Shown here piece after piece: positions 1 through 13,777 of a DNA stretch of 13,777 nt. The DNA comes from an uncultured Collinsella sp. (GTDB taxonomy: Bacteria; Actinomycetota; Coriobacteriia; Coriobacteriales; Coriobacteriaceae). A program made the translations under genes and the position numbers. Numbering within the stretch: the stretch's first letter is position 1; each line of letters begins with the position of its first letter. The DNA lies in contig CATYIV010000042.1 in the NCBI GenBank assembly GCA_958407465.1, positions 1 through 13,777 on the forward strand, in the 5' to 3' direction. The notes under the pieces were generated by a model, which worked only from the letters and a program-made list of their open reading frames with translations, did not search any database and had not been told where the DNA came from.

Positions 1-437
1 GCGCCGAATGCTCGCCATCGAAATTTATCGATGACCTATTTCAGACTGTAATGGGGCTGTTTCCGGGCAGGGGAGTGTCGGCTGCTGCCAGCTAATAACG
101 AAATTGGGGGCGAGCTCACAGTTGAGGCTGTCCTGCGCAACCTCAGCGGGGCTACGTTCTTCAGACGCGTGTTGGAAGTGGTGCGGAGTGTTAGGGCCTC
201 GCCGCGATGTCGAACGGTACGGTTATCAAGGATTTGCTCAGCGTCAAGTTCGAACTTCCGGTGTGGGTGCAAAGTGGATTGGGACAGGACGGATGATTGG
301 GGCCATCTTCGAGCTTGCAGGTGAAATAGGGGCGGCATAGGATATCTAATGATATTCAGGTTTGGGATGCGGACCGACTCGCTTCGAATCGGGCTTACAT
401 CAACTTTCTCGACACTATCGTATGAGAGGAATCTGGT
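1..437. other. Gene-poor left edge, possibly decayed coding DNA
   Basis: No convincing intact gene is visible before 438. Short protein-like stretches occur on the plus strand in three different frames: one from about 124, one from the ATG at 207 to a stop at 294-296 (29 codons), and one ending at the stop near 338-340. This pattern could be a frameshifted remnant, but each piece is too short to name, and the longer open frames on either strand here have no recognisable motif. The last 120 bases hold the candidate promoter and leader of the PHP-ATPase gene. Confidence 0.35.
315..343 (+). promoter_or_regulatory. Candidate promoter of the PHP-ATPase module
   Basis: TTGCAG (315-320) and TAGGAT (338-343) are separated by 17 bp, each matching the sigma-70-type consensus at four of six positions. 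The box lies about 95 bases before the ATG at 438, next to an AT-rich stretch. It is found by eye only. Confidence 0.35.
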
Positions 438-2612
438 ATGAAGATTGATTTGCATTGCCATACCATCAAGGCGAAATCGGGCGATGGAGGGCGCGATATT
501 GACCCGGCCAGCTTGGCTGAGGCCTTAGCAGGCAACCAGGTTGGTATCGCCGCCATTACAAACCATAACCTCTTCGACCTTTCAATATTCAAGCAATGCG
601 TAGCTGAAGCGTCAGCCAAGGGAATCGATCTCTGGCCGGGCATAGAGCTTGATATTCGAGGCAAGTCTAGGGTTGTCGGCCATGTAATCGTTATTGCTGA
701 CCCCGTGCATGCGAAGCAGTTTTCTGATGTCTGTAATGGCCTGGTTCAATGCACACATCCTGATGATTTTGTTCTTGATTGGGATAAGCTTGCCGGCGCA
801 TTTGTCGGACAAGGGTTCGATTTCATCGTGATATCTCATTACCGTCCCTTCAAGGGCAAGTCTTATAAAGATAAGGCACTGCCTTACGCCGATAATCAAG
901 CACTGAAAGCGAGTTTTCCAGTAGAAACCCCGTTCTTTTTCGAGCCTTCAAACCTTAAGCGCGCTGGCATCATGTATGCCGATGGGGTCGATTGCCTGAT
1001 TGGCTCGGACGTCAAAGACTGGAGCAAGTATTGTGAGTGCTCCCTTCCTGAGATTAAACTTGAGGTCAAGAGCTTCAGCCAGTTTCTGCTCCTGCTTAGA
1101 AAGACACCTGAAGTTCTCAAATCCATTATGGACAAGAAAACGTCAGAGCAGGTTGAAATCACTTTGTTCGATGACGATGCGAAGCTTACCTTCCCCGTCT
1201 ACAACGACGTCACCATCGTCTTTGGCGCCAAAGGCACGGGGAAGACGGCGCTTCTAAAAAAGATAGAGAATCATTTTCGGGCGAAGGGGTGGACCGATGT
1301 CTCTTCGTATTACGCGTCAGAAAACAATGACAAGTATAAACAAATGGTGAACGTGAATCCCAAAGAGGAGGACTTTGTTAAACTCGGCGTCGACGACGCG
1401 AGTGATAAATTCGCTGGCATCAGAGCGTGGAATGAACCGGCAGTAACTCCTTTTAGCAATTACATCAGCTGGGAAGAATACAGTGTCGAGAAAAAGGACA
1501 CGGCTCGCTTCGGATTTGCCTTGGCTTCTGCACCTGTAGAACCGGACCTTGACGCGATGAGATGTCTTATCGATGACTATAAGACATTGATATCTAGCGC
1601 TAATAATATTCTTAACAACAAGATTGTTGAGGCTTGCTTGAGTTCTAACGAATTCAGTGAACTTAGATCTGCTGTTCTGAGAGTATGTATGAACGCGCAA
1701 TCCTATGTGCGATCCGGTTTCGTTGACGCCTACGCACTTCATCTCGAGTGTTTTACAGTCAAGAAAATGAAAAGTTACATCACTGCGCGAACGGGGAGTC
1801 CTACAAAGCCTTCCGGAACCGGGTTTTCGGCTTTTGCCTTAAGCTACAAAAAGGCGAGATCCATTTTGAATTCGATTTCCGATTCTTTTCAAAACGAGCC
1901 TTATGAGGAAAAAGTGGTACTCGGACGTCTGGCTGAAAAGGGCGACGTTGTACAACATCGAAAATACTTAATAAATCCGTCGCAGGGAACGAAGGTCTCT
2001 TATCTTCGCGATAAGGTGAAGGCCAAGAATCTAAAATCGTTGGTTGCGGCAATCGGCAATGCATCGGATACCGCCAAAACTCCGTGTGGAGCATTGGCCT
2101 CGAAAATAGCCGAGGTTAACAAGATGACAGATGAGATGGGAATTGCCTCGCTTAAGGACTGTCTGGGCGTTACCTCCTATGTGTCTTGTGGGGGAGATTC
2201 GAGCTATGAGCCCTCTAACGGGGAGAGGGCGATGATTGTTCTTGCCCATGCCCTGTTCGACGATGATGCCTCCATTTATATCCTCGATGAGCCTGAGGCA
2301 AGTATGGGCAATGAATTTATCAACGAGGTTATCGTAGATAGAATCAACCAGCTGGCGAAAGCAAATAAAATTGTCATAGTGTCCACCCATAATGCCAACA
2401 TTGCTGTTCGTACTTTGCCCTGGCAATCGATTTATCGCGAATACGATGGCGGTTGCTATCGTACCTACGTGGGTAATCCCTTTTGCGATGAGCTTAGGGA
2501 TATTGCTGAGGTCAAACCGCCTAAGGTGTGGACACAAGTGAGTATGGACACTCTTGAGGGCGGGGAATATGCATTTACCGACAGGGAGATTGTTTATGGA
2601 AAACTTAACTAA
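438..2612 (+). CDS. PHP phosphoesterase / ABC-type ATPase fusion (Ppl/TrlF-like, likely antiphage)
   Basis: The 724-residue protein joins two modules. Residues 1 to about 200 form a PHP metal-dependent phosphoesterase domain: HCH at 6-8, NHN with H43, E70, H82, H134 and a late D191 are in the expected order for PHP metal ligands. From about 240 it is an SMC/ABC-like ATPase: Walker A GAKGTGKT at 263-270, signature-like PSNGER at 592-597, Walker B ILDEPEAS with D617-E618, and a switch histidine in STHN (H651). The ATPase middle (about 300-580) is helical and not recognisable. The start ATG has AGAGG 8 bases upstream. Known: PHP-ATPase fusions include the single-gene Ppl defence system and the TrlF family. 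Inferred: an ATP-gated, nucleic-acid-directed defence enzyme. Codon use is AT-richer than in the sucrose and guaB genes, which fits horizontal transfer. It is probably co-translated with the next gene. The exact substrate cannot be read from the sequence. Confidence 0.85.
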   Translation: MKIDLHCHTIKAKSGDGGRDIDPASLAEALAGNQVGIAAITNHNLFDLSIFKQCVAEASAKGIDLWPGIELDIRGKSRVVGHVIVIADPVHAKQFSDVCNGLVQCTHPDDFVLDWDKLAGAFVGQGFDFIVISHYRPFKGKSYKDKALPYADNQALKASFPVETPFFFEPSNLKRAGIMYADGVDCLIGSDVKDWSKYCECSLPEIKLEVKSFSQFLLLLRKTPEVLKSIMDKKTSEQVEITLFDDDAKLTFPVYNDVTIVFGAKGTGKTALLKKIENHFRAKGWTDVSSYYASENNDKYKQMVNVNPKEEDFVKLGVDDASDKFAGIRAWNEPAVTPFSNYISWEEYSVEKKDTARFGFALASAPVEPDLDAMRCLIDDYKTLISSANNILNNKIVEACLSSNEFSELRSAVLRVCMNAQSYVRSGFVDAYALHLECFTVKKMKSYITARTGSPTKPSGTGFSAFALSYKKARSILNSISDSFQNEPYEEKVVLGRLAEKGDVVQHRKYLINPSQGTKVSYLRDKVKAKNLKSLVAAIGNASDTAKTPCGALASKIAEVNKMTDEMGIASLKDCLGVTSYVSCGGDSSYEPSNGERAMIVLAHALFDDDASIYILDEPEASMGNEFINEVIVDRINQLAKANKIVIVSTHNANIAVRTLPWQSIYREYDGGCYRTYVGNPFCDELRDIAEVKPPKVWTQVSMDTLEGGEYAFTDREIVYGKLN

Positions 2613-2955
2613 CGGAATCGTTCTGAACGCCGGTGCCGACCAACACGTGATTACGGTTACGTTGCGTATGAACTCGGAGGGCAATGAGGTCCTTCACTTT
2701 GAAGACGCTCCGGAAGAGTTGGACATCGACTTTGCGAAAAGCGACCAGACCTCTCTACGCAAGTTATTTCGCTGGCTGTTGGATGAGCAGCTCAAGCAAA
2801 GATTCAGCCTGAAATTAAAGATTGACTCCTCGGTTAAGAATGTCACTTATAAAAAGGTCGCTGAGGATTACGTCAATGACCTCAACGCTGAAATTGATCA
2901 GGTCTTTTTAAATGAAGCTCAGACCATAAAGGATCTACATGAGAAATTGGGATAG
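2596..2955 (+). CDS. Small acidic protein of unknown function, partner of the PHP-ATPase
   Basis: The chosen ATG at 2596 lies inside the end of the PHP-ATPase gene, a 17-bp overlap, and has AGGGAG (2583-2588) 7 bases upstream. A longer reading from 2554 is possible but would lie deeper in the upstream gene. The product is 119 residues, acidic, with no signal peptide or membrane segment. Its first half looks beta-rich (ITVTLRM, VLHFED), and its second half is charged and helical, ending in DLHEKLG. I do not recognise a family. The tight overlap indicates co-translation, so it is most likely a subunit, inhibitor or sensor for the PHP-ATPase; that role is inferred from position only. No terminator with a T run is evident directly after it. 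Confidence 0.7.
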   Translation: MENLTNGIVLNAGADQHVITVTLRMNSEGNEVLHFEDAPEELDIDFAKSDQTSLRKLFRWLLDEQLKQRFSLKLKIDSSVKNVTYKKVAEDYVNDLNAEIDQVFLNEAQTIKDLHEKLG

Positions 2956-3232
2956 AGCCCGGAAACGGTAGGGGTTCTGGGGACTCATAAGCCTCGATTA
3001 GTTTGAGGTATCTTTAAAGATGACTCCCGATAACGTCTTGATAAGGGCTGCTTCGAATATTGGTAGTATGGTTGTTTGCGAATTTGTGTATGAGACGCTT
3101 GACTAATGTGTCCTCGTGGAGTGCGATGCCGTCTTTCGGGTCGCTGCGGGCGCGGGTATGTAGAGTGCTTTTATGCGTTGGCACTCGTCAACCGCTAGGG
3201 CGATGCAGTACGAGTTGGGGCCTCTTTTCTGC
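2956..3232. other. Intergenic stretch between the two defence modules
   Basis: No intact gene is supported. An imperfect fold pairs 2980-2988 with 3020-3028 (one mismatch) around an inner CCTC/GAGG stem at 2992-3008. It could be a 3' structure for module 1, but it lacks a T run. Most of the rest overlaps the possible minus-strand gene remnant listed separately. Confidence 0.3.
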
Positions 3233-3245
3233 TTCACTTCATTAA
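3014..3245 (-). pseudogene. Possible decayed gene on the minus strand
   Basis: Read on the minus strand, 3245 to about 3183 gives a protein-like stretch (NEVKQKRGPNSYC... VDECQR). A different frame then stays open from a GTG at 3184 to a stop at 3014-3016 (56 codons, including DPKDGIALHEDTLVKRLIHK). The first frame meets a stop at the codon following RTH. The composition of both stretches is natural for a protein, which suggests one gene broken by a frameshift. I cannot name the family, and chance is not excluded. The plus-strand frame opposite, from 3060, is rich in Cys, Trp and Arg and looks like its shadow. Confidence 0.2.
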
Positions 3246-3260
3246 GGTGTATAGTATATA
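3233..3260 (+). promoter_or_regulatory. Candidate promoter for a short terminated RNA
   Basis: TTCACT (3233-3238) and TATATA (3255-3260) are 16 bp apart in an otherwise non-coding AT-rich segment. Transcription would start near 3267, just before two consecutive hairpins. An overlapping TATAGT (3250-3255) is another possible -10 box. Confidence 0.3.
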
Positions 3261-3266
3261 GCGCAA

Positions 3267-3328
3267 TATTAAAGCTCTTTGGGAGCTTTAAGGGTGACGC
3301 TTTCTGTAAGAGAGTGTTGCCCTTTTTT
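3267..3328 (+). ncRNA. Candidate short structured RNA of about 60 nt
   Basis: Two adjacent stem-loops make up nearly the whole segment. The first has 9-bp perfect arms, TTAAAGCTC at 3269-3277 and its complement at 3283-3291, with the loop TTTGG. The second is the terminator hairpin that follows at once. A promoter-like pair lies just upstream and no reading frame is evident inside. The alternative is that this is only the terminator of a lost gene. The family is not recognised. Confidence 0.3.
3292..3328 (+). terminator. Rho-independent terminator
   Basis: A 13-bp stem (3292-3304 with 3310-3322, four G-U pairs) with the 5-base loop TGTAA is followed directly by six T (3323-3328). It points along the plus strand, upstream of the RloA-like gene and more than 330 bases after the stop of module 1. 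Confidence 0.75.
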
Positions 3329-3435
3329 CATGCATGTAATGTGTGACGTGTTAGCTAAACGCCATTTCGGCAATGGGATGGTCGAGTATGGGCGGTTTGG
3401 CACCTTGCGCCTGCTGTCATTGGTGTAGCAAGCAC

Positions 3436-3466
3436 TTGATTTAGACTACTTAAAGTCTATAATCAA
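3436..3466 (+). promoter_or_regulatory. Promoter of the RloAB-like operon with overlapping dyad operator
   Basis: TTGATT (3436-3441) and a perfect TATAAT (3458-3463) are separated by 16 bp, giving the strongest promoter match in the window. An inverted repeat spans the same bases: TTGAT (3436-3440) pairs with ATCAA (3462-3466), and TAGACT (3442-3447) with AGTCTA (3454-3459), around the centre acttaa. A dimeric repressor bound there would cover both promoter boxes. The regulator is not identified. Confidence 0.6.
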
Positions 3467-3517
3467 AGAAAAACTCTGATATATCTTTTCAAAATAATGA
3501 AAGGAATGTTGAGTACC

Positions 3518-4735
3518 ATGCTTTGTCAGTTCACCTTTAAGAACTATCGGTCCTATCGCGACGAGGCTGAGCTTTCCATGCAGGCGACGCCGATGAAGGA
3601 GTTTGAGCGTTCCCTCATCGAGTGCTCCGACGGGCAGAGTTTCCTTCCGGTGGCTGCGGTGTACGGGCCCAACGCTGGTGGTAAGTCTAACCTGCTCGAG
3701 GCTCTTGATTACGTTCGTTCGGCGGTGGCCAGACCAATTAGATTGCTGTCTGCCAGCGCTGATGCGCCAGCGGGTGATCGCCCTTTGATAGCCCGTTGTT
3801 CGGCGTTTGAATTTGATGACGTGTCTGCTGCCGAGCCCACCGAGTTCGAGCTCTATTACCGCGCGGGCGAGCATGAGTACCGCTATGTTCTGTCTGTACA
3901 CGCCGATGAGATCGTGTCCGAAGGGCTGTGGCGGCGTAAATTGGGAGCGTCGCGTACGGCGATGCTGTTCGAGCGCGAGGATACAAAGGTTGAACTCGGC
4001 CCCACACTGCGTAAGCTTGTGACGTCTGCGAGGTTCAACCCGAGCCTGCCGTACCTATCGTTCCTTTGCATCAACTTCGATGCGCCGGTGGTCCAGGAGG
4101 CGGCCAGCTGGTTTCTCGACGCTGTGTTTCTCAACTACAACAGTTCCTACCTTGAGCGGATGCTCGAGCAAATGCTCGACGAGGGCGACTCGCGCGAGGT
4201 CACGCGTTTTTTGCGCGCCGTTGATGTGCGTATTGATGGCTTCAGAGTGGAGAGGGCGCCGGAGTGGCGTGGCCAGCGCGTCTTCGTGAGGCACAAGGTG
4301 AGGGGCAAGGCGTACGAGCTGCGTTTATCCGAGGAATCTGCCGGTACCCAGAAGCTCATGGGGTTGGCTGCGTATCTGATGACAGCGCTTGAGCGTGGTG
4401 GCACCGTTGTGGTAGACGAGCTCGACGCCAAACTGCACCCGAAGCTTCTTCGCTATGTGATTCTGCTGTTTAAGGATCCTGAGGTCAACAAGAGTGGCGC
4501 GCAGCTCATCTTCTCGTCCCAGGATGTGTCAACCATGCGAAACGATGTGTTCCGCCGTGACGAGATATGGTTCGCTGCACGCGGCGAGGGGGAGGCGAGC
4601 CAACTGTGGTCTCTCGCCGATATCCACGAGGCAAACGGTAATCTGGTAAGCAAGAACGCGGCTTTCGACAAGCAATACCTGTCCGGTCGCTACGGCGCCG
4701 ATCCGTACCTCACCCGCATCGAGGAGTGGGATTAG
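3518..4735 (+). CDS. AAA15/RloA-like ATPase (AbiLi-like), likely antiphage
   Basis: This is a soluble P-loop ATPase of 405 residues from the chosen start. The N-terminus FxFKNYRSYRDEAEL at 5-19 is the classic opening of the AAA15/AAA21 (RloA, OLD-like) group. Walker A is GPNAGGKS (50-57), followed by a long inserted middle (about 70-260), an LSEESAGTQ signature-like segment (270-278) and Walker B VVVDELD with D300-E301 then LHPKLLR. The last motif reads FSSQDVST, with Q335 where the family usually has histidine. The ATG at 3518 is chosen because the family motif begins right after it; an AAGGA stands 12 bases before it. ATGs at 3497 and 3506 are in frame and possible. The RloB gene follows after 1 bp, so the two form one unit, as in the lactococcal AbiL abortive-infection system and in rloAB genes found near type I restriction loci. 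Inferred role: ATP-driven sensor or scaffold controlling the RloB effector. Confidence 0.88.
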   Translation: MLCQFTFKNYRSYRDEAELSMQATPMKEFERSLIECSDGQSFLPVAAVYGPNAGGKSNLLEALDYVRSAVARPIRLLSASADAPAGDRPLIARCSAFEFDDVSAAEPTEFELYYRAGEHEYRYVLSVHADEIVSEGLWRRKLGASRTAMLFEREDTKVELGPTLRKLVTSARFNPSLPYLSFLCINFDAPVVQEAASWFLDAVFLNYNSSYLERMLEQMLDEGDSREVTRFLRAVDVRIDGFRVERAPEWRGQRVFVRHKVRGKAYELRLSEESAGTQKLMGLAAYLMTALERGGTVVVDELDAKLHPKLLRYVILLFKDPEVNKSGAQLIFSSQDVSTMRNDVFRRDEIWFAARGEGEASQLWSLADIHEANGNLVSKNAAFDKQYLSGRYGADPYLTRIEEWD

Positions 4736-4736
4736 C

Positions 4737-5405
4737 ATGGTGGTGAAGAAGTCGAAGGGCTGGCGTAGCGGCAAGCGAGAGGGCCGCTCGCGCATGGTTC
4801 AGATGACGCGTCATCTTGTAGTGAGCGAGGGCAAGGAGACCGAGCCTCGCTACTTTGAGGGCGTGCGTGCGGCGTTGGGCGCGGCGAACGAGCGCAAGGT
4901 TGCCATTGTCGTTAAGGGGACCGGCAGACACACGCTTGACCTGCTTGACTTCGCCGTCGAACACTGTCGCTATGCGCCCGAGACGTTCGATCACGTGTGG
5001 CTCGTGTATGACAAGGATGACTTTCCTGCGTCCGACTTTGATGCGATGAAGCGCAAATGTGACGAGCTCTCCGATGGTTCGAGGACCTTCCATGCGTTGT
5101 GGTCGAACCCCTGCTTCGAGCTGTGGCCGCTTTTGCACTTTCGCTACACGACCGCGCATATGTCCGCGTCCGACTGCCAGCATGCCCTCGCGCAGGAGAT
5201 GTCGAAGAACTTGGGCATCGAGTACCGCAAGAACCTGGACGGGATGTTTGGGGCAGTGGATGATAGGCGAGGCGAAGCATTGGAGCGTGCTGGGCGCCTC
5301 GTCGCGTACCATAGGGAACTGGGTAACATTAAGCCATCTGCGCAAAACCCTGCAACTAAGGTGGGCGAAATTTTCGATGTAATCGGTCCGTATCTGGTTG
5401 GATAG
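4737..5405 (+). CDS. rloB: RloB-family protein (AbiLii-like, TOPRIM-like putative nuclease)
   Basis: The 222-residue protein opens with a basic tail (KKSKGWRSGKREGRSR), then VVSEGKETEPRYFEG at 28-42, the hallmark of the RloB family. Further landmarks are VYDKDDF with D92 and D94, and SNPCFELW at 123-130 with E128. An early Glu (E31) plus a DxD motif is the acidic layout of TOPRIM-type metal sites, so a nuclease function is plausible. That is a family inference and is not proven by this sequence. The length is typical. The ATG follows the RloA-like stop by one base, and GAGGAG (4721-4726) in the end of that gene serves as ribosome binding site, so translation is coupled. By analogy with AbiL and the ATPase/TOPRIM pair of PARIS, it would be the effector released or activated by the ATPase on infection. 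Confidence 0.88.
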   Translation: MVVKKSKGWRSGKREGRSRMVQMTRHLVVSEGKETEPRYFEGVRAALGAANERKVAIVVKGTGRHTLDLLDFAVEHCRYAPETFDHVWLVYDKDDFPASDFDAMKRKCDELSDGSRTFHALWSNPCFELWPLLHFRYTTAHMSASDCQHALAQEMSKNLGIEYRKNLDGMFGAVDDRRGEALERAGRLVAYHRELGNIKPSAQNPATKVGEIFDVIGPYLVG

Positions 5406-5510
5406 CCGAGTTCGATCGGGCTCGATAGGTCTGGAGATTCATGAAAGATGTTGTTTCGGGCTGCCTGCCGTCTTTAACTGGATTGACCTTTTGGGACCCG
5501 ATAGGATACT

Positions 5511-5626
5511 AGGCCGAATCTAGCGGTATTGACGCAGTCAACCTACGGGCCTGCGTCCTGCGGGGGCGGCTTTTCTTTTGAATCACCGCCCCTTTTCATC
5601 ATTTGTATGGATGTAAGATTCGGCCT
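5511..5626. repeat. 11-bp inverted repeat enclosing two hairpins
   Basis: AGGCCGAATCT (5511-5521) is the exact complement of AGATTCGGCCT (5616-5626). Between them lie two perfect 7-bp hairpins: GACGCAG/CTGCGTC (5531-5537 with 5551-5557) and GGGGCGG/CCGCCCC (5563-5569 with 5586-5592). As RNA this would fold as a closing stem with two arms. It could be a structured RNA, an attenuator, or a small mobile element with terminal repeats. No target-site duplication is apparent. Confidence 0.5.
5563..5596 (+). terminator. Probable terminator downstream of the RloAB-like operon
   Basis: A 7-bp all-GC stem (5563-5569 with 5586-5592) and a 16-base loop are followed by TTTT (5593-5596). The loop is long and the T run short, so termination may be partial. 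It is the first such structure after the rloB stop. Confidence 0.5.
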
Positions 5627-5943: not shown

Positions 5944-6031
5944 AATGATCCGCCGAGACCTTTCCGGTCGAATATTTTTCGGGCGAGGGTTGGGTATCAT
6001 GGTGAAAGCGATTTCAATGATAGGGGTACTC

Positions 6032-7012
6032 GTGGTAAAGATGAAGGATGTGGCCGAGCTGGCCGGCGTTTCGAGCGCCGCTGTCTCGCGCTACCTCAAC
6101 GGTGGCTACATATCGGCGGACAAGGCCGAACGCATTAAGCAGGCGATTGAGCTGACCGGATACGTGCGGTCCAGCCAGGCTCGCGCGCTGCGCACCGGCT
6201 CCACCAAGCTCATCGGCGTCATCGTGCCCAAGATCAACTCGGAATCCGTGAGCCGCATTACTGCCGGCATTGGCCAGGTGCTCGGTCGTCGTGGCTACCA
6301 GATGCTGCTTGCCAATACCGACAATGCCCCCGATCGCGAGCTCGAATACCTCGATTTATTCCAAAACCACCCGGTCGATGGCATTGTGCTGGTGGCAACC
6401 ATGATCACCGACGAGCATCGTCGGGCGATCGAGTCGTGCCGTGTGCCCATTGTGCTGATCGGCCAGAATGTCGAGGGCGCGGCGTGCGTCTATCATGACG
6501 ATTACGAGGCCGCTTTTGAGCTGGGCCATGCGCTTGCGGGTCGCGTGGACGGCAAGATTGCCTACATTGGAGTTACCGAGGAGGACCGCGCCGCCGGTTA
6601 TGACCGCCGTCGCGGTTTTGAGGCCGGCTTGCGCGCCGTGGGCGTGTCACTTGATCCGAGCCTGATTCGCCAGGGGTCCTTTACGCTCGACTCGGGCTAT
6701 GGTGCGGCGCGTGAACTGCTTTCCGTCGACCCCGATGTTTCGTTTATCGCGTGCGCGACCGACACCATGGCGGCGGGCGCGCTGCGTGCTATCGATGAGG
6801 TTCGCGGCATGGGCGAGGGCATACACCGCGTGAGCGGTTTTGGCGACAACGCGTTTTTGCGCGCGCTGACGGGAGGCATTCCCACCGTGCACTATGGGTA
6901 TCTGACCAGTGGCGTCGAGGCGACCAATATGTTGCTCAACACGCTCGACGGCGAGGAGGGGGAGCGCGGTCTCAAGACGCTCAAGCTCGGCCATCAGCTT
7001 ATGAATGTCTAG
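6032..7012 (+). CDS. LacI-family transcriptional regulator, probable sucrose operon repressor
   Basis: From GTG 6032 the protein has 326 residues, the usual LacI length. An N-terminal helix-turn-helix (MKDVAELAGVSSAAVSRYLN, beginning at residue 4) and a hinge region with the YVRSSQARALRTGSTKLIGV boundary lead into a periplasmic-binding-protein-like effector domain (LIGVIVPKINS... VDGIVLVATM... GFGDN). GTG 6032 is chosen because AGGGG (6022-6026) lies 5 bases upstream. ATG 6041 is the minimal family start, and ATGs at 5945, 5999 and 6017 would add unneeded tails. It precedes a sucrose PTS gene, and the gap between them carries two LacI-type sites, so a ScrR-like role sensing sucrose, sucrose-6-phosphate or fructose is likely; the ligand is inferred. 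A TATCAT box at 5995-6000 may be its -10, with no clear -35. Confidence 0.9.
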   Translation: MVKMKDVAELAGVSSAAVSRYLNGGYISADKAERIKQAIELTGYVRSSQARALRTGSTKLIGVIVPKINSESVSRITAGIGQVLGRRGYQMLLANTDNAPDRELEYLDLFQNHPVDGIVLVATMITDEHRRAIESCRVPIVLIGQNVEGAACVYHDDYEAAFELGHALAGRVDGKIAYIGVTEEDRAAGYDRRRGFEAGLRAVGVSLDPSLIRQGSFTLDSGYGAARELLSVDPDVSFIACATDTMAAGALRAIDEVRGMGEGIHRVSGFGDNAFLRALTGGIPTVHYGYLTSGVEATNMLLNTLDGEEGERGLKTLKLGHQLMNV

Positions 7013-7098
7013 ACTCTGGGCACGTCTGCTTGCCTCTGAGACCCTGTTTTGTCTCAAAACTACCATTCGCCGGCTATTTCCTACCGTTCACCCTTCTG
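7013..7098 (+). other. Overlapping hairpins after the LacI-family gene
   Basis: TGAGAC/GTCTCA (7037-7042 with 7051-7056) and GTTTTG/CAAAAC (7046-7051 with 7055-7060) are two mutually exclusive stems sharing bases. There is no T run after either, so a weak terminator or attenuator role is only possible. Confidence 0.25.
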
Positions 7099-7112
7099 TG
7101 AAAACGATTACA
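7099..7112 (+). promoter_or_regulatory. LacI-family operator, copy 1
   Basis: TGAAAACGATTACA is a half-symmetric site around a central CG (five of seven positions palindromic), typical of LacI-family operators. It lies 96 bp before the permease ATG. It also fits the catabolite-response consensus TGWAANCGNTNWCA, but the local regulator is the likelier binder. Confidence 0.8.
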
Positions 7113-7124
7113 GACATATGAAAC

Positions 7125-7138
7125 TGAAAACGATTACA
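7125..7138 (+). promoter_or_regulatory. LacI-family operator, copy 2
   Basis: This is an exact second copy of the 14-bp site TGAAAACGATTACA, 26 bp downstream of the first and in the same orientation. Spacing of roughly 2.5 helical turns would place two bound dimers on nearly opposite faces. The operon promoter probably overlaps the pair; CATATG (7115-7120) between them may hold the -10 box. Confidence 0.8.
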
Positions 7139-7194
7139 GTGTAAGTGTCAAAGCTGGTCGGGTGCAAATGCGCCCGTTGGAGGAAAGGGAAGTC

Positions 7195-8595
7195 ATGGAC
7201 TACCGCAAATCAGCCCAAGAGGTGCTCGACAATATCGGTGGCGCCGACAACGTTGTTTCGGCTGCGCACTGCGCCACGCGTCTGCGCCTGGTGATTGCCG
7301 ATAATTCCAAGGTTAACAAGGAGGCCATCGAGAACGTCGACGGCGCCAAGGGCGTCTTTGAGGCCCAGGGCCAGCTCCAGATTATTTTTGGCACCGGCAC
7401 CGTCAACAAGGTCTACGAAGAGTTCATCGCGCTCAGTGGCGTCGAGGCTGCCACCAAGGCCGAGGTCAAGGAGGCCGCGGCGCAGCGGCAGAACATTTTT
7501 ATGCGCGCCATTAAGGTGCTCGGCGACGTCTTTGTCCCCATCATTCCCGCCATCGTGGCTTCGGGCCTGCTGCTGGGAATCATGAGTGCTCTCAACTTTA
7601 TGGCCTCCAATGGCTTTATCGCGCTCGACACCAATAACTTTATCTACAAGATCGCCGACCTGGTCTCGGGCACGTCCTTTGGCATTCTGCAGATCCTGAT
7701 CGGCTACTCCGCCGCCAAGGCCTTTGGCGCCAACCCGTACCTGGGCGCCGTCGTCGGCGGTGCGTTCATCAACTCCTCGCTGCAGAGCGCCTACACGGTT
7801 GCCTCCGAGGGCGTGCAGACCATGGTCACCGTTATTCCCGGTGTGTACAGCTTTGAGTGGGTCGGCTATCAGGGCCATGTGATTCCCATCGTCATCGCCT
7901 GCGCCATTCTCGCCTTCCTCGAGAAGCGCCTGCACAAGATCGTTCCCGAGATGTTCGACCTCTTTGTGACTCCGCTCGTCTCCGTATTCGTGACCGTGCT
8001 CGTGACGCTCGTTGCCGTCGGTCCCATCTTCGTGTGGGCCGAGAACGCCATCCTCGGTCTGATTCAGACCCTTCTGACCCTGCCCTTCGGCATCGGTTCC
8101 TTTATCGTCGGTCTGTTCTATGCCCCCACGGTTGTTACCGGTATCCACCAGATGTACACCGCCATCGACCTGGGTCAGCTCGCCCAGTACGGCGTGACCT
8201 ATTGGCTGCCCATCGCCAGTGCCGCCAACATTGCCCAGGGTGGTGCCGCGCTCGCCGTTGCCTTTAAGACCCGCGATGCCAAGATCAAGGGCCTGGCGCT
8301 TCCTTCGGCTCTGTCCGCCTTCATGGGCATTACCGAGCCTGCCATCTTCGGTGTGAACCTGCGCTTCTTTAAGCCCTTCATCGCCGGCTGCATCGGCGGT
8401 GGCTGCGGCGCACTGGTCTGCGCGCTCACCTCGCTGGCTGCCTCCGGCACGGGCGTTACCGGTATCTTCGGTATCCTTCTGTGCCTGGCCCAGCCTGTGC
8501 AGTACGCGATCATGTTTGCGGTCGCCGCGGTGGTTTCCTTTGCCATCTCGTTTGTCCTGTACAAGGACGAGCCTAAGGCTTCCGAGCAGGCCTAA
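7195..8595 (+). CDS. scrA: Sucrose-type PTS EIIBC permease
   Basis: This is a phosphotransferase transporter of 466 residues with the IIB domain first and the IIC domain after. IIB carries the phosphorylated cysteine in HCATRLRL (C26). IIC begins near residue 110, has about ten hydrophobic segments (the first at 113-133), and contains the sugar-binding GITEP motif at 378-382. This is the glucose-superfamily, sucrose/beta-glucoside branch. No IIA domain is fused, so a separate EIIA of the glucose type must supply phosphate; none is in the window. The start at ATG 7195 is supported by GGAGG (7179-7183) and AAGGGA (7185-7190), and an in-frame ATG at 7162 lacks such a site. The adjacent sucrose-6-phosphate hydrolase and LacI-type operators make sucrose the best substrate. 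Trehalose and beta-glucosides are alternatives for the family, but the GH32 neighbour argues against them. Confidence 0.92.
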   Translation: MDYRKSAQEVLDNIGGADNVVSAAHCATRLRLVIADNSKVNKEAIENVDGAKGVFEAQGQLQIIFGTGTVNKVYEEFIALSGVEAATKAEVKEAAAQRQNIFMRAIKVLGDVFVPIIPAIVASGLLLGIMSALNFMASNGFIALDTNNFIYKIADLVSGTSFGILQILIGYSAAKAFGANPYLGAVVGGAFINSSLQSAYTVASEGVQTMVTVIPGVYSFEWVGYQGHVIPIVIACAILAFLEKRLHKIVPEMFDLFVTPLVSVFVTVLVTLVAVGPIFVWAENAILGLIQTLLTLPFGIGSFIVGLFYAPTVVTGIHQMYTAIDLGQLAQYGVTYWLPIASAANIAQGGAALAVAFKTRDAKIKGLALPSALSAFMGITEPAIFGVNLRFFKPFIAGCIGGGCGALVCALTSLAASGTGVTGIFGILLCLAQPVQYAIMFAVAAVVSFAISFVLYKDEPKASEQA

Positions 8596-8609
8596 GAGCT
8601 TTTGATTAA

Positions 8610-8648
8610 GGGAAACTCCCGCGGGTTGTATGCTCGCGGGCGTTTCCC
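8610..8648 (+). terminator. Intercistronic hairpin without a T run
   Basis: GGGAAAC (8610-8616) pairs with GTTTCCC (8642-8648), and CCCGCG (8618-8623) with CGCGGG (8635-8640), with one T/C mismatch between and an 11-base loop. No T run follows, so it is better seen as an mRNA stabiliser or partial terminator setting the permease-to-hydrolase ratio. Confidence 0.55.
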
Positions 8649-8703
8649 GTATCTGGTGCCGATCTCTGGCGCCTTGTAACTTTCGATCCGTTAGGACTTT
8701 GAT

Positions 8704-10242
8704 ATGTCTAATGCACTTGGTCGCGATCTTGCAAAGCTGGTTGCCGCTGTTGACGCTGCCGCCTCTGAGTGCGGTCATGGCGCGTATGGCCAGCACTTCC
8801 ATATTATGCCGCCGGCGGGCTGGCTCAACGACCCCAACGGTCTTTGCCAAGCGGCCGGCGTGTTCCATGCTTATTTTCAATATGCGCCGTTTGATGTCGA
8901 GGGTGGCGTTAAGACCTGGGGCCATGCGACGAGTCGCGATCTTATGACGTGGGACTACGTTGGCGCCCCGCTGCTGCCCGATGAGCCGTTCGATTGCCAC
9001 GGTGTGTATTCGGGCTCCGCGCTTGCCGAGGACGGTTGCATTCGCGTACTGTACACGGGCAACGTGAAGCTATCCGATGCGGACGGGACGTACGACTACG
9101 TTAATACCGGCCGCCGCGCCGATACTGTTTATGTCGAGAGCGTCGATGGTCTTGCCGGTCGGGAGTTCAGCCAAAAGCGTGTGGTGCTGTCTTCCGAGGA
9201 TTATCCCGAGGATTTGACCTGTCACGTGCGCGACCCCAAGGTGTGGCGTGACTCGGACGGGCGTTATCACATGGTGCTGGGCGCGCGTCGTCGCGTGGAT
9301 GGTCCGCATGTCGAGAGCCGTTTTTGTGCGATGCACGGTGAGGGTGCCGGGCGCGATGTGGGCGAGATCCTGGTGTATGGCTCGGCCGATATGCTGAGCT
9401 GGGAGCTTGAGAACCGCGTGTCTACGCCCGAGCGTTTTGGCTTTATGTGGGAGTGCCCCGGCTATATTGAGCTCGATGCGAATGTCGATACCGCTGCATT
9501 TTTGTCGTTCTCGCCCCAGGGCCTTGAGGGCGGTCGTTGGGATCGCGGCAATGTGTATGCCGCTGGCTACATGCCTGTATCGGGCGACATTACGGGTGGC
9601 AAGGACGCTTATGAGCTGGGCGAGTTCCGCCTGTGGGACGCCGGTTTTGACTTCTATGCGCCGCAGGAGTTCACGGCCGAGGACGGTCGCCATATTCTAA
9701 TCGGCTGGATGGGCATGCCCGATGAGCCGACCTATGGCAACGCACCGACCGTGGTGTGCGGCTGGCAGCACTGCATGACGGTGCCGCGCGAGCTTACGGC
9801 CGGTGACGGCGGCGTGGTGCTGCAGCAGCCGACGCGCGAGATCGAGCGCCATTATGCCTCGGTGCGTGTGGGGGAGGGCTCGTTGGAGGTTGCCGGCGAT
9901 ACCTGCTTTGACGTTGTTGTCGACGGCGTCCACCGCGCGTTTACCACAACCGTTGATGGCGAGCTAAGGCTGTCGTTTATGCCTGCCGAGGGCGAACTGC
10001 CCGCGCGCTTTGAGATGCGATTTACCGATGAGAGCCGCGCTTCTGCCGGCTGCGGTCGCACCGTGCGCTGGGAGCCCGTCGACGAGGTTCGTAACGTGCG
10101 CATTGTTGGCGATGTTTCGTCGGTCGAGGTGTTTGTGAACGATGGCGCGCTCGTGTTTTCGACACGCGTCTATCCTGAGGCCTATGGCGTGACCGTTGAC
10201 GCTCCGGGCGCGAACGTGACCTATCACACGCTCAACATCTAG
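8704..10242 (+). CDS. scrB: Sucrose-6-phosphate hydrolase (GH32)
   Basis: The 512-residue cytoplasmic glycoside hydrolase of family 32 would hydrolyse sucrose-6-phosphate to glucose-6-phosphate and fructose. All three GH32 catalytic motifs are present: WLNDPNG with nucleophile D43, the transition-state stabiliser in HVRDPK (D177), and the acid/base in WECPGY (E250). The five-bladed propeller is followed from about residue 390 by the usual C-terminal beta-sandwich (RIVGDVSSVEVFVNDG near the end). There is no signal peptide, which supports action on an internalised phosphosugar and not on external fructans. The ATG has AGGA 7 bases upstream. It lies 108 bp after the permease with only a hairpin between, and shares the plus orientation, so it is probably in the same operon. 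Family members can also act on sucrose or short fructans, and the assignment to the phosphate form is from context. Confidence 0.94.
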   Translation: MSNALGRDLAKLVAAVDAAASECGHGAYGQHFHIMPPAGWLNDPNGLCQAAGVFHAYFQYAPFDVEGGVKTWGHATSRDLMTWDYVGAPLLPDEPFDCHGVYSGSALAEDGCIRVLYTGNVKLSDADGTYDYVNTGRRADTVYVESVDGLAGREFSQKRVVLSSEDYPEDLTCHVRDPKVWRDSDGRYHMVLGARRRVDGPHVESRFCAMHGEGAGRDVGEILVYGSADMLSWELENRVSTPERFGFMWECPGYIELDANVDTAAFLSFSPQGLEGGRWDRGNVYAAGYMPVSGDITGGKDAYELGEFRLWDAGFDFYAPQEFTAEDGRHILIGWMGMPDEPTYGNAPTVVCGWQHCMTVPRELTAGDGGVVLQQPTREIERHYASVRVGEGSLEVAGDTCFDVVVDGVHRAFTTTVDGELRLSFMPAEGELPARFEMRFTDESRASAGCGRTVRWEPVDEVRNVRIVGDVSSVEVFVNDGALVFSTRVYPEAYGVTVDAPGANVTYHTLNI

Positions 10243-10280
10243 GCGATTGGTCGTCTATCGGCGCTATACTGCAGCCGTTG

Positions 10281-10316
10281 CCCACGATGCGGGGAACATC
10301 CGCATCGTGGGTTTTT
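10281..10316 (+). terminator. Strong Rho-independent terminator after the sucrose hydrolase gene
   Basis: A perfect 12-bp stem (10281-10292 with 10300-10311), a 7-base loop and TTTTT (10312-10316) make this a classic terminator for the sucrose operon. It lies only 23 bases before the next gene's start. Confidence 0.92.
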
Positions 10317-10338
10317 GCTTGTGAAGGGACGGTGCTGC

Positions 10339-11331
10339 GTGGACGTGCAACAGCTAGAAGAGGCCTGGGCTTTGAGGACCGGCGCGCGTGAGGTGCATCT
10401 ATTTGCTGCCCGGCACGTGCCGGCAGCGCTTTCGCTGCTGGGTATTGTGCGTCCTGGTGACCGCCTGGTGGCCTTTGCAGATGACTTTACCGAAGCGTTT
10501 GCGCACGGCTTTGATGGCTGCGACGTGGCTATGGTGGGCGAGGCGTCGGTTGCAGCGTTTGCTGCTGCGTCCGAGGGCTTTGATGCTTCGTTTGATGCCG
10601 AGGGGTCGCACCTGTGGTGGTTTGTGAACTCTATCGGCGGGTTTGGTCTGCGCGTTCCCGACCTTCGCGCTCTGGGCCGCGCGGCGCGTGAGGCTCATGC
10701 GCTGCTGGTTGTGGACAACACCGTGTCGTCGGCTTTTGGCTGCGATCCGCTGCGGCTGGGTGCCGTGCTGTCGCTCGAGGCGTTCGACCGCGTGTGTGCT
10801 GGTAAGGCACCGTGCAAGCTCGTTGCCGCTTCGGTGGCGCGCTCGCAGCTCAAGCGCCATCGTGTGGATGCTGCCGCCGAGTGCGCGTATACCCTGCTTG
10901 AGGGGTGCGGCTCGTCGGCGCTCGACCTTTCTACCGAGGAGGCCGACGTGCTGGAGCGCGGGCTTTCCTCGTTTAACACCCGCATGCAAGCGCATTTCGA
11001 CCGCGCCCGTGCGCTGGCCGAGTATCTGGCCGCCAACGAGATGGTGCGCAACGTGTGCTATCCCGGGCTGAACTCGCATCCCGACCATGCGGTTGCAACG
11101 GGAATCCTCGAGCATGGTTTTGGCCCGGCAGTTGAGTTTGACCTTATCAAGCTTAGCGCAGGAGAGCTGTTCGACGCTTTGCCGGGGGAGTTTCGCACAT
11201 CGCCTGCCGGCGGCGCAACGACGCGTCTTTCGGCCCCACGCGGCAAGCAGGGGAGCACCATCCGCCTCTTCGCCGGTACCGACAACCCACTGGTTGTAGC
11301 GTCAACCCTAGACAACGCCCTTCGCAACTAG
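10339..11331 (+). CDS. Divergent Cys/Met-metabolism PLP-dependent enzyme homologue
   Basis: The 330-residue protein belongs to the cystathionine gamma-synthase/O-acetylhomoserine sulfhydrylase fold, which is usually 380-400 residues. Landmarks are LLVVDNTVSSAFGCDPLRLGA (VDNT at 125-128, D126 as pyridine partner), LDLSTEEADVLERGLSSFNTRM, VCYPGLNSHPDH, and a C-terminal GSTIRLFAGTDNP. The canonical HSATKYLGGH stretch holding the cofactor lysine is not recognisable: 25 residues after D126, where MetB has its lysine, this protein has R151, and the nearest lysines are K156 and K160. The N-terminus is also shortened. It may use a shifted lysine, have lost catalysis, or have a changed role. GTG 10339 is chosen for AAGGGA (10324-10329) 9 bases upstream; TTG 10315 and GTG 10321 are in frame but lie at the terminator. 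It stands alone between the sucrose terminator and a long palindrome. Confidence 0.75.
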   Translation: MDVQQLEEAWALRTGAREVHLFAARHVPAALSLLGIVRPGDRLVAFADDFTEAFAHGFDGCDVAMVGEASVAAFAAASEGFDASFDAEGSHLWWFVNSIGGFGLRVPDLRALGRAAREAHALLVVDNTVSSAFGCDPLRLGAVLSLEAFDRVCAGKAPCKLVAASVARSQLKRHRVDAAAECAYTLLEGCGSSALDLSTEEADVLERGLSSFNTRMQAHFDRARALAEYLAANEMVRNVCYPGLNSHPDHAVATGILEHGFGPAVEFDLIKLSAGELFDALPGEFRTSPAGGATTRLSAPRGKQGSTIRLFAGTDNPLVVASTLDNALRN

Positions 11332-11349
11332 CTAAATCATCCTCAACTC

Positions 11350-11424: not shown

Positions 11425-11465
11425 AGAAGGGGTTGTGCAGCTAAAAAAGCTCCGTCTCAAATTGG

Positions 11466-11810
11466 CTACTCTTTGATGCTGGCGATGAGGTCGTTGGCTT
11501 TGGTGGCGATGACGTTGTTGATCTCGCCCTGCAACGTCTCGTAGACTTCGATGGCTCGCTCGCCGGCGGGGGTGAGCGTGGATCCGCGGGCGCCGTCGCG
11601 CTCGATGAGCTTGCAGCCCAGCTGGCCTTCGGCTTCGTTTACAATGCGCCAGGCCTTGGAATACGCCATACCCATGCTCTTGGCGGCGCGGTTGAGCGAG
11701 TGCTCGCGGGCGATACCCTGCAGCAGCAAGACACAGCCGTGTCCAAACACGCCCGGCAGATCTTTGTCGCACGCTTGAATGACCAACTTTGCCGTCGTCT
11801 TGTACTCCAT
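11466..11810 (-). CDS. ModE-like winged-helix transcriptional regulator (single domain)
   Basis: The product is 114 residues from ATG 11810. It matches the N-terminal DNA-binding domain of ModE (LysR-type winged helix): a hydrophobic first helix (CVLLLQGIAREHS), the recognition region LNRAAKSMGMAYSKAWRIVNEAEGQL, then a wing with LIERDGARGSTLTPAGERAIEVYE. The molybdate-binding TOBE domains of full ModE are absent, so it either responds to nothing small or binds a different signal. GTG 11819 is a possible start but lies only 1 to 2 bases after a GGGGAGA run; for ATG 11810 the same GGGGAG is 11 bases upstream. It is divergent from guaB and could bind the shared 190-bp intergenic region. In other bacteria such one-domain regulators often sit with molybdate or redox genes, none of which are in the window. 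Confidence 0.82.
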   Translation of the reverse strand: MEYKTTAKLVIQACDKDLPGVFGHGCVLLLQGIAREHSLNRAAKSMGMAYSKAWRIVNEAEGQLGCKLIERDGARGSTLTPAGERAIEVYETLQGEINNVIATKANDLIASIKE

Positions 11811-11895
11811 ACGCTCCACGTCTCCCCGCTAAAGTGTTTGCTGGGCAAACGCAAAGCCTGCGTCAAACCCTCGTGTGCTCTTCTTAAATCATGCA

Positions 11896-11924
11896 TTGTA
11901 GCAGTCAAAGTGCGTTAAGATACT
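11896..11924 (+). promoter_or_regulatory. Candidate guaB promoter
   Basis: TTGTAG (11896-11901) and GATACT (11919-11924) are 17 bp apart, giving a leader of about 75 bases before the guaB ATG. The match to consensus is moderate. Confidence 0.4.
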
Positions 11925-11933
11925 TCCCCAGTA

Positions 11934-11953
11934 TTGGGCGCCCAAGGTTGGGC
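11934..11953 (+). promoter_or_regulatory. Palindromic element in the guaB leader
   Basis: TTGGGCGCCCAA (11934-11945) is a perfect 12-bp palindrome, directly overlapped by GCCCAAGGTTGGGC (11940-11953). The shared GCCCAA can pair with TTGGGC on either side. Placed just after the predicted transcription start, it could be an operator or a leader switch; the binder is unknown. Confidence 0.4.
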
Positions 11954-12003
11954 TGGGTCCTACGAGGCCTGCAGCCGACCGGTCGCATGGAAAAAGGAGA
12001 AAC

Positions 12004-13515
12004 ATGGCTACGTTCTTTCCCGGTGAGTCCCACACGTTTTCGGAGTATCTGCTGGTCCCTGGTTACTCGTCCTCGCAGTGCATCCCCAACAACGTCTCTC
12101 TTAAGACGCCGCTGACCCGCTTTAAGCGCGGTGAGAAGCCGGCAATCACCCTGAACATCCCCATGGTTTCCGCCATCATGCAGTCTGTTTCGGGCGTCGA
12201 CATGGGTGTCGCGCTCGCTACCGAGGGTGGCCTGTCCTTCATTTACGGTTCCCAGAGCGCCGAGTCCGAGGCCGCTATGGTCAAGGCCGTCAAGGATCAC
12301 AAGGCCGGCTTCGTTCAGTCCGATTCCACCCTGACCCCCGACATGACCATGGAGCAGGTCATCGAGCTCAAGGAGAAGACCGGTCACTCCACCATGCCGG
12401 TCACCGACGACGGCACTCCCAAGGGTAAGCTCCTGGGCATCGTCACCAGCCGTGACTATCGCCCCAGCCGCGATGACCACCAGACGAAGGTCTCTGAGTT
12501 CATGACCCCGCGTGAGCAGCTCATCGTGGGCGACAAGAACATCAGCCTCAAGGTCGCTAACGACGTCATCTGGGACAACAAGCTCAACGCCCTGCCCATC
12601 GTCGACGATAACGATCACCTCATGGGCATCGTCTTCCGCAAGGACTACGACAGCCACAAGACCAACCCCAACGAGCTGCTCGACGGCGACAAGCGCTACA
12701 TGGTCGGCGCCGGTATCAACACCCGCGACTATGCCGAGCGCGTGCCGCTGCTCATCGAGGCTGGTGCCGATGTCCTGTGCATCGACTCTTCCGAGGGCTT
12801 CAGCGAGTGGCAGAAGCGCACCATCGAGTGGATCCGCGCCAACTACGGCGAGGACGTCAAGGTCGGTGCCGGTAACGTTGTCGACGCCGAGGGCTTCCGC
12901 TTCCTGGCCGACTGTGGTGCCGACTTCATCAAGGTCGGTATCGGCGGCGGTTCCATCTGCATCACCCGTGAGACCAAGGGTATCGGCCGTGGCCAGGCCA
13001 CCGCGCTGATCGATGTCTGCCGCGCTCGCGACGAGTACTACGAGGAGACCGGCGTCTACGTGCCCGTGTGCTCCGACGGCGGCATCGTTTATGACTACCA
13101 CATGACGCTCGCCCTTGCCATGGGTGCCGACTTTATGATGCTGGGCCGTTACTTCGCCCGCTTCGACGAGAGCCCGACCGAGCGCGTCAACGTCAATGGC
13201 CAGTACATGAAGGAGTACTGGGGCGAGGGTTCCGCGCGTGCCCGCAACTGGCAGCGCTACGATCTGGGTGGCGCCGCGAAGCTCAGCTTCGTCGAGGGCG
13301 TCGACTCCTACGTTCCCTACGCCGGTTCCCTCAAGGACGGTGTGGGCGGAACGCTCTACAAGGTCAAGTCCACGATGTGCAACTGCGGTGCCCTCTCGAT
13401 CCCCGAGCTCCAGGAAAAGGCACGCCTGACCCTGGTGAGCTCGACCTCCATCGTCGAAGGCGGCGCCCACGACGTAGTCGTCAAGGATTCCCAGCAGTCC
13501 GTATCTTATCGATAA
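12004..13515 (+). CDS. guaB: Inosine-5'-monophosphate dehydrogenase
   Basis: This enzyme oxidises IMP to XMP with NAD+, the committed step of guanine nucleotide synthesis, in the cytoplasm. It has 503 residues: a catalytic TIM barrel interrupted at about 100-220 by two CBS domains (regulatory, adenine-nucleotide binding in many members). The active-site loop [12 protein letters not shown] carries C319, which attacks IMP, and the K+ site is in the same loop. The mobile flap [16 protein letters not shown] carries the R418-Y419 pair. Further markers are SAIMQSVSG near the N-terminus, VGAGINTRD at the barrel strand and [11 protein letters not shown] at the phosphate site. The start is the ATG with AGGAG (11995-11999) 4 bases upstream. 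The sequence, length and residue numbers match the Tritrichomonas foetus enzyme rather than the E. coli type. Codon use is strongly biased to C- and G-ending codons, as expected for a highly expressed gene. The large frame open on the opposite strand is its shadow. Confidence 0.97.
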
Positions 13516-13563
13516 GGTAAGAGCCTCACATAAAGGTTGAGTTTCAACCACGTTATTTAGATA

Positions 13564-13608
13564 AAGCGAGATGCCTGCAAGTTGCAGGCATCTCGCTTGT
13601 TGTATTTG
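13564..13608 (+). terminator. Terminator of guaB
   Basis: A 17-bp perfect stem (13564-13580 with 13582-13598; in practice the tip opens to a small loop around 13581) is followed by a T-rich tail TTGTTGTATTT. It lies about 50 bases after the guaB stop. Confidence 0.85.
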
Positions 13609-13623
13609 CTATCATCAGTCAAG

Positions 13624-13764
13624 TTAACCTTAGGGTCGGTCGGCTTGGCTTTGTTCGCTACAAGTTCCGCACGCAAAGAAGAGCACTTAATGTGCTCTTC
13701 GTCTTGCGCAGGACTGTCCGCAGTAGCGAACAAAGCCAAGCCGCCCGACCCCAGCTAAGATTAA
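13624..13764. repeat. Very long imperfect hairpin upstream of the next gene
   Basis: The main arms, 13633-13660 and 13724-13751, match at 27 of 28 positions (only T13640 faces C13744). Outside them TTAACCTTAG (13624-13633) pairs with CTAAGATTAA (13755-13764), one mismatch, across a small bulge. Inside, CGCAA/TTGCG and a 9-bp GAAGAGCAC/GTGCTCTTC stem (13677-13685 with 13691-13699) continue the fold. The right end abuts the ribosome binding site of the next gene. It may be a leader that controls that gene or a palindromic mobile repeat. Confidence 0.8.
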
Positions 13765-13774
13765 AGGAGCTGAT

Positions 13775-13777
13775 ATG
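13775..13777 (+). CDS. Start codon of a gene that continues beyond the window
   Basis: Only the ATG is present. AAAGGAG (13763-13769), 5 bases upstream, is a strong ribosome binding site, so a gene very likely starts here. Its product is unknown from this window. Confidence 0.6.

Follow-up and report, generated by a model that had tools for sequence, protein, structure and literature searches.

Does the PHP-ATPase encoded near the start of a contig from an uncultured Collinsella sp. (CATYIV010000042.1; the analysed stretch of 13,777 nucleotides is called the window here) work by itself, or together with the small gene that overlaps its 3' end? Gene A (438-2612) specifies a protein of 724 residues in which a PHP domain is fused to an ABC/SMC-like (SMC/AriA-like) ATPase. 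Gene B (2596-2955) specifies 119 residues and opens with the ATG at 2596, giving a 17-bp overlap (2596-2612). Both genes, and the sites described within them, lie on the forward strand. An initial annotation took the pair for a possible two-gene version of Ppl/TrlF and for a candidate undescribed system. The comparisons described below support B as a conserved partner of A that belongs to no named family.

The initial description of B as an acidic protein starting inside the ATPase gene, with its own ribosome binding site, is borne out. B has a pI of 4.8 and a net charge of about -9, and a Shine-Dalgarno-like AGGGAG (2583-2588) lies inside gene A, 7 nucleotides 5' of the ATG. An alternative start, the TTG at 2554, would yield 133 residues. 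The ATG is preferred, having a better ribosome site than the TTG and being similar to the starts scored at related loci.

A conserved pair of overlapping genes

Relatives were gathered as a set of 80 loci plus L108, which comes from viral contigs (IMG/VR). Sorted by the size of A and by the second gene, 38 of the 80 fall into the window's clade, 25 into the clade of PDC-M49, a two-gene candidate system of PADLOC, and seven into a TrlF clade; the other ten were left unsorted. Every one of the 39 assessable loci in the window's clade (the 38 and L108) has an overlapping B; A is cut by a contig end in three of them (L060, L061 and L065) and broken in L062. Within this clade, homologues of A are thus not mostly without the small gene, the outcome that would have counted against the initial reading. 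In L062 (6001-8132), A is interrupted by several stop codons and by a shift of frame, and the overlapping B is still open.

An open reading frame (ORF) of 90-140 codons starts at -60 to +10 nucleotides from the stop of A in 35 of the 35 full-length loci of the clade. Among other ORFs that are 300 residues or longer, taken from those loci and 20 control loci, the same holds for 14 of 225; these are mechanically called ORFs rather than checked genes. The arrangement therefore exceeds chance. Scoring most often places the start of B 14 nucleotides upstream of the end of A (21/36). Judged from their gene arrangement, the two proteins may be obligately co-translated, as the initial annotation suggested.

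B diverges more than A (median pairwise identity 27% versus 34%), which would suit a fast-evolving recognition subunit that senses phage. However, the pairwise distances of the two proteins rise in step (r 0.93), and there is no sign of independent replacement of B inside the clade. We consider a sensor role quite unlikely.

A separate family of small proteins

A search with the single sequence of the window's B matched 37 proteins, and a B-family profile matched 1452 at an E-value of 1e-3. A hidden Markov model (HMM) built from 39 distant Bs of other loci gives 57.0 bits to the window's B and at least 43.0 to each of the 37 proteins closely related to it. Decoys (200 shuffles, one reversal and 267 unrelated proteins) reach at most 7.9 bits, and eight Bs from the PDC-M49 clade at most 4.9. 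By these sequence scores, the Bs of the window's clade are one family.

As the initial annotation had suspected, this family has no recognised name. Searches of PADLOC and NCBIfam with the window's B give no match at E 1, and Pfam gives two matches near 0.1, both below cut-offs. No Pfam domain appears in the 120 proteins listed among the 1452 profile matches. B is predicted to form strands at residues 17-25, 31-35, 43-45 and 70-76, a helix at 51-67 and a long helix at 83-118; the mean predicted local distance difference test score of its structure model is 76.9.

Motifs of the PHP-ATPase

Fold matches place the PHP domain at about residues 1-231 of A (438-1130). The ATPase part carries a Walker A region at residues 263-270 (1224-1247), an ABC signature-like PSNGE at 592-596 (2211-2225) and a Walker B region at 613-620 (2274-2297) that includes Glu 618. 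In the PHP domain, the ligand-type residues H6, H8, H43, E70, H82, H134 and D191, which we take to be metal ligands, are each present in 36/36 members of the clade; position 193, an additional ligand-type site, is variable. A thus has the conserved ligand-type His, Glu and Asp residues that mark a metal-dependent PHP hydrolase.

The top PDB sequence match of the ATPase part is AriA of the PARIS system (8ux9, 8v45 and 8v46). To our knowledge, PARIS AriA has no PHP domain. PMC12409363 describes the partner of AriA, AriB, as a Toprim nuclease.

The C-terminal tail of A (residues 706-720; 2553-2597) bears a motif, (L/M)E(G/A)G..(F/Y)..R...Y, that is common to all three clades. Confidence in this tail is mostly low in the monomer model. 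A conserved tail that is modelled so poorly in the monomer suggests contact with a partner or within an oligomer.

Distribution

The A-B cassette is present in several phyla, and its occurrence within two that were surveyed is patchy. In 398 genomes of one phylum, A was found in four at 1e-20, and B adjoins it in the same four at 1e-3. Two of these were already in the locus set (G100, which holds L031, and G445, with the B of L060 and a split A). B apart from A was limited to one weak match (1.8e-4), elsewhere in one of the four genomes, in a first look that scored at most two candidates per genome for A and at most 12 for B, so that faint matches to a B standing alone could have escaped notice. 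A second phylum yields three matches in 395 genomes, one of them partial. B accompanies both full-length ones with at least 108 bits (G099, which holds L041, and G601).

One possible role for B is that of an antitoxin-like inhibitor, such that free A would be toxic and held off by B until phage action removes B. B is small and acidic and sits in a tight gene arrangement with A, and the ATPase of A resembles AriA; PARIS holds its effector off. Against such a role, A precedes B, whereas many antitoxin genes stand first. The near-absence of B away from A in the 398 genomes, with one weak match as the exception, does not discriminate between an inhibitor and a subunit. The open B beside the broken A of L062 is neutral. 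On balance, an inhibitor seems rather unlikely.

Among 98 relatives of genome G001, which shares the locus nearly unchanged (see below), only G001 itself has a full-length A. G055, from the same family, has a PHP-ATPase followed by a small second gene that by eye is PDC-M49-like and differs from the window's B (L002), so both types are present in related hosts. G036 has a frame of 760 residues and too little DNA downstream to judge a second gene. The presence of the L108 pair on an IMG/VR contig suggests that prophages may sometimes carry the cassette.

Neighbouring genes and mobility

An AbiL-type pair follows on the forward strand (3497-5405), consisting of AbiLi (3497-4735; E 4e-83) and RloB/AbiLii (4737-5405; 1e-21). 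It is probably a unit separate from A-B. Pattern matching finds a terminator-like hairpin after B (3290-3324, forward strand) and a promoter-like site before the AbiL-type pair (3436-3463), but the counts of such promoter-like and terminator-like matches are near those of shuffled sequence (7 versus a mean of 4.9, and 8 versus a mean of 6.3, respectively). Further along (5945-10242), a LacI-type regulator is followed by ORFs that by eye resemble a phosphotransferase system permease and a sucrose hydrolase.

A block covering A, B and the AbiL-type pair (53-5559) is 99.8% identical to G001 over 5507 bases. Identity beyond it falls to 90.6% (5991-11334), 96.1% (11459-13496) and 82.8% (13526-13777); the left flank of the block in the window is too short for such a comparison. 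The contrast between this block and the more diverged later stretches suggests that the A-B-AbiL segment was recently transferred or recombined. The GC contents of A (47%) and B (45%) are low next to the 58-64% of genes from AbiLi onward.

Neighbourhoods in 20 genomes supplied 136 neighbour proteins, and 20 stretches elsewhere on the same contigs supplied 131 proteins as controls. At 1e-15, 187 PADLOC families are matched among neighbours and six among controls, counting families rather than distinct defence proteins. The names mad3 and AriA occur in both sets, and each listed neighbour family is matched by one or two proteins. Among the 25 listed of 117 neighbour Pfam families are ResIII (3/136), phage integrase (3/136), N6_Mtase (1/136) and metabolic families; the 25 listed of 166 control families comprise regulators, transporters and housekeeping enzymes. 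The neighbours of A-B look richer in defence genes than the controls. One pair lies on a Photobacterium plasmid next to genes of a BsuBI/PstI restriction system; its two genes overlap by 14 bp and are annotated as 'AAA family ATPase' and 'hypothetical protein'.

PHP domains are found, too, in enzymes that work in repair, in replication and on RNA (EndoQ, Pol III and RNase AM), and A-B could in principle have a housekeeping function in DNA or RNA metabolism instead of one in defence. Its patchy occurrence (4/398 and 3/395 genomes), its low GC content, the near-identical block in a genome whose further stretches are more diverged and the defence-leaning neighbourhood all make this improbable. 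Instead, A-B appears to be a mobile unit directed against phage.

A model for the pair

Ppl is a 3'-5' single-stranded DNA exonuclease that is released when nucleoside triphosphates (NTPs) fall and 3' ends appear, as described in PMC12904381. By analogy, the PHP and ATPase parts of A would fit a nuclease role of the Ppl type. We favour, with moderate confidence, the view that A-B is a Ppl-like unit acting against phage or other mobile DNA, with A as the nuclease and B as a bound subunit. The PHP domain would be a nuclease that depends on metal and probably targets DNA ends, and the SMC/AriA-like ATPase would restrain it. B would be translated from the mRNA of A and bind A at a fixed ratio. B has no clear match to an enzyme, and its divergence tracks that of A; we read it as a non-enzymatic subunit that may assemble or gate A. 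Infection would free the nuclease by depleting nucleotides or by exposing ends, the triggers reported for Ppl.

A broader idea, which we hold only tentatively and think unlikely, treats PHP-ATPases as a modular defence platform with a clade-specific second subunit. The interchangeable subunits would be this small B, the small B of PDC-M49 and a longer AlbA_2-like protein, and B would here take the regulatory role that longer relatives keep in-chain. A and B together have 843 residues; TrlF-clade proteins have 853 and 858, and the Ppl model has 882 positions.

Relationship to catalogued systems

That A is a PHP-ATPase related to Ppl and TrlF is supported, and in this respect, as in the conservation of B, the initial reading of a two-gene version of Ppl/TrlF stands. 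A scores under both NCBIfam cut-offs, and the nearest relative is neither of these systems.

TrlF likewise joins a PHP domain to an ATPase and shares the tail (L/M)EGG..AF..R with A, but its proteins are longer, and six of seven TrlF-clade loci carry a long second gene (none was found in L103). Against the TrlF model (NF045780), A reaches 79.6 bits, below the curated cut-off of 350, and the assignment was rejected; L096 and L099, the two loci whose clade membership was checked, score 520 and 541.

Ppl, with PHP and NTPase parts, is described as a nuclease and as a single-gene system in PMC12904381, whereas B follows A throughout the window's clade. Of 60 NCBIfam models matched by A, the top 25 do not include the Ppl model (NF042955), and the lowest of these 25 scores 19.1 bits, so that A lies far under the curated 1000-bit cut-off and was not assigned to Ppl. 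A search of 274 genomes with this model matched four, none above the cut-off. Three of the matches have readable 3' ends, and a long second gene follows in L147 and L148 but none of that kind in L146. By eye, the long genes behind the PHP-ATPases of L096, L097, L098, L099, L102, L106, L147 and L148 are AlbA_2/Schlafen-like. Such genes behind PHP-ATPases of the TrlF clade or matching the Ppl model suggest that others of these enzymes may also be two-gene systems.

PDC-M49 is the nearest catalogued relative and the nearest clade by score. It consists of a PHP-ATPase of about 670-680 residues and an overlapping gene of about 100, and a small second gene is present in 25/25 loci of its clade, with the start scored downstream in L074 and L091. 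A-B has the same architecture of two overlapping genes, which is therefore not new. In a tree of 64 A proteins from the window's (37), PDC-M49 (21) and TrlF (6) groups, each group stands apart with 100/100 support; the 37 include the A of the window and the identical one of L001. As drawn, PDC-M49 is the sister of the window's clade, but the root is a midpoint root, which does not establish which two clades are sisters.

The window's A scores 108 bits (1e-31) against PDC-M49A, a model without a stated cut-off that gives two PDC-M49 members 942 and 948. The PDC-M49B models match 19 of 19 scanned second genes from the 25 PDC-M49-clade loci. At E 0.01 they match none of the 46 Bs scanned from the family of the window's B, nor do they match that B itself at E 1, and no profile similarity between the two B families was detected. 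By its second gene, A-B therefore falls outside PDC-M49. The system is not entirely undescribed, as its architecture was already catalogued.

Annotation with PADLOC models, which do not recognise B, would miss it. The pair delimits a cassette of PHP-ATPase and small subunit across several phyla, and it poses a testable question: what does a small partner add to a nuclease type, that of Ppl, described as working alone? On present sequence comparisons, A-B is filed as a putative subtype near PDC-M49 with a B family of its own.
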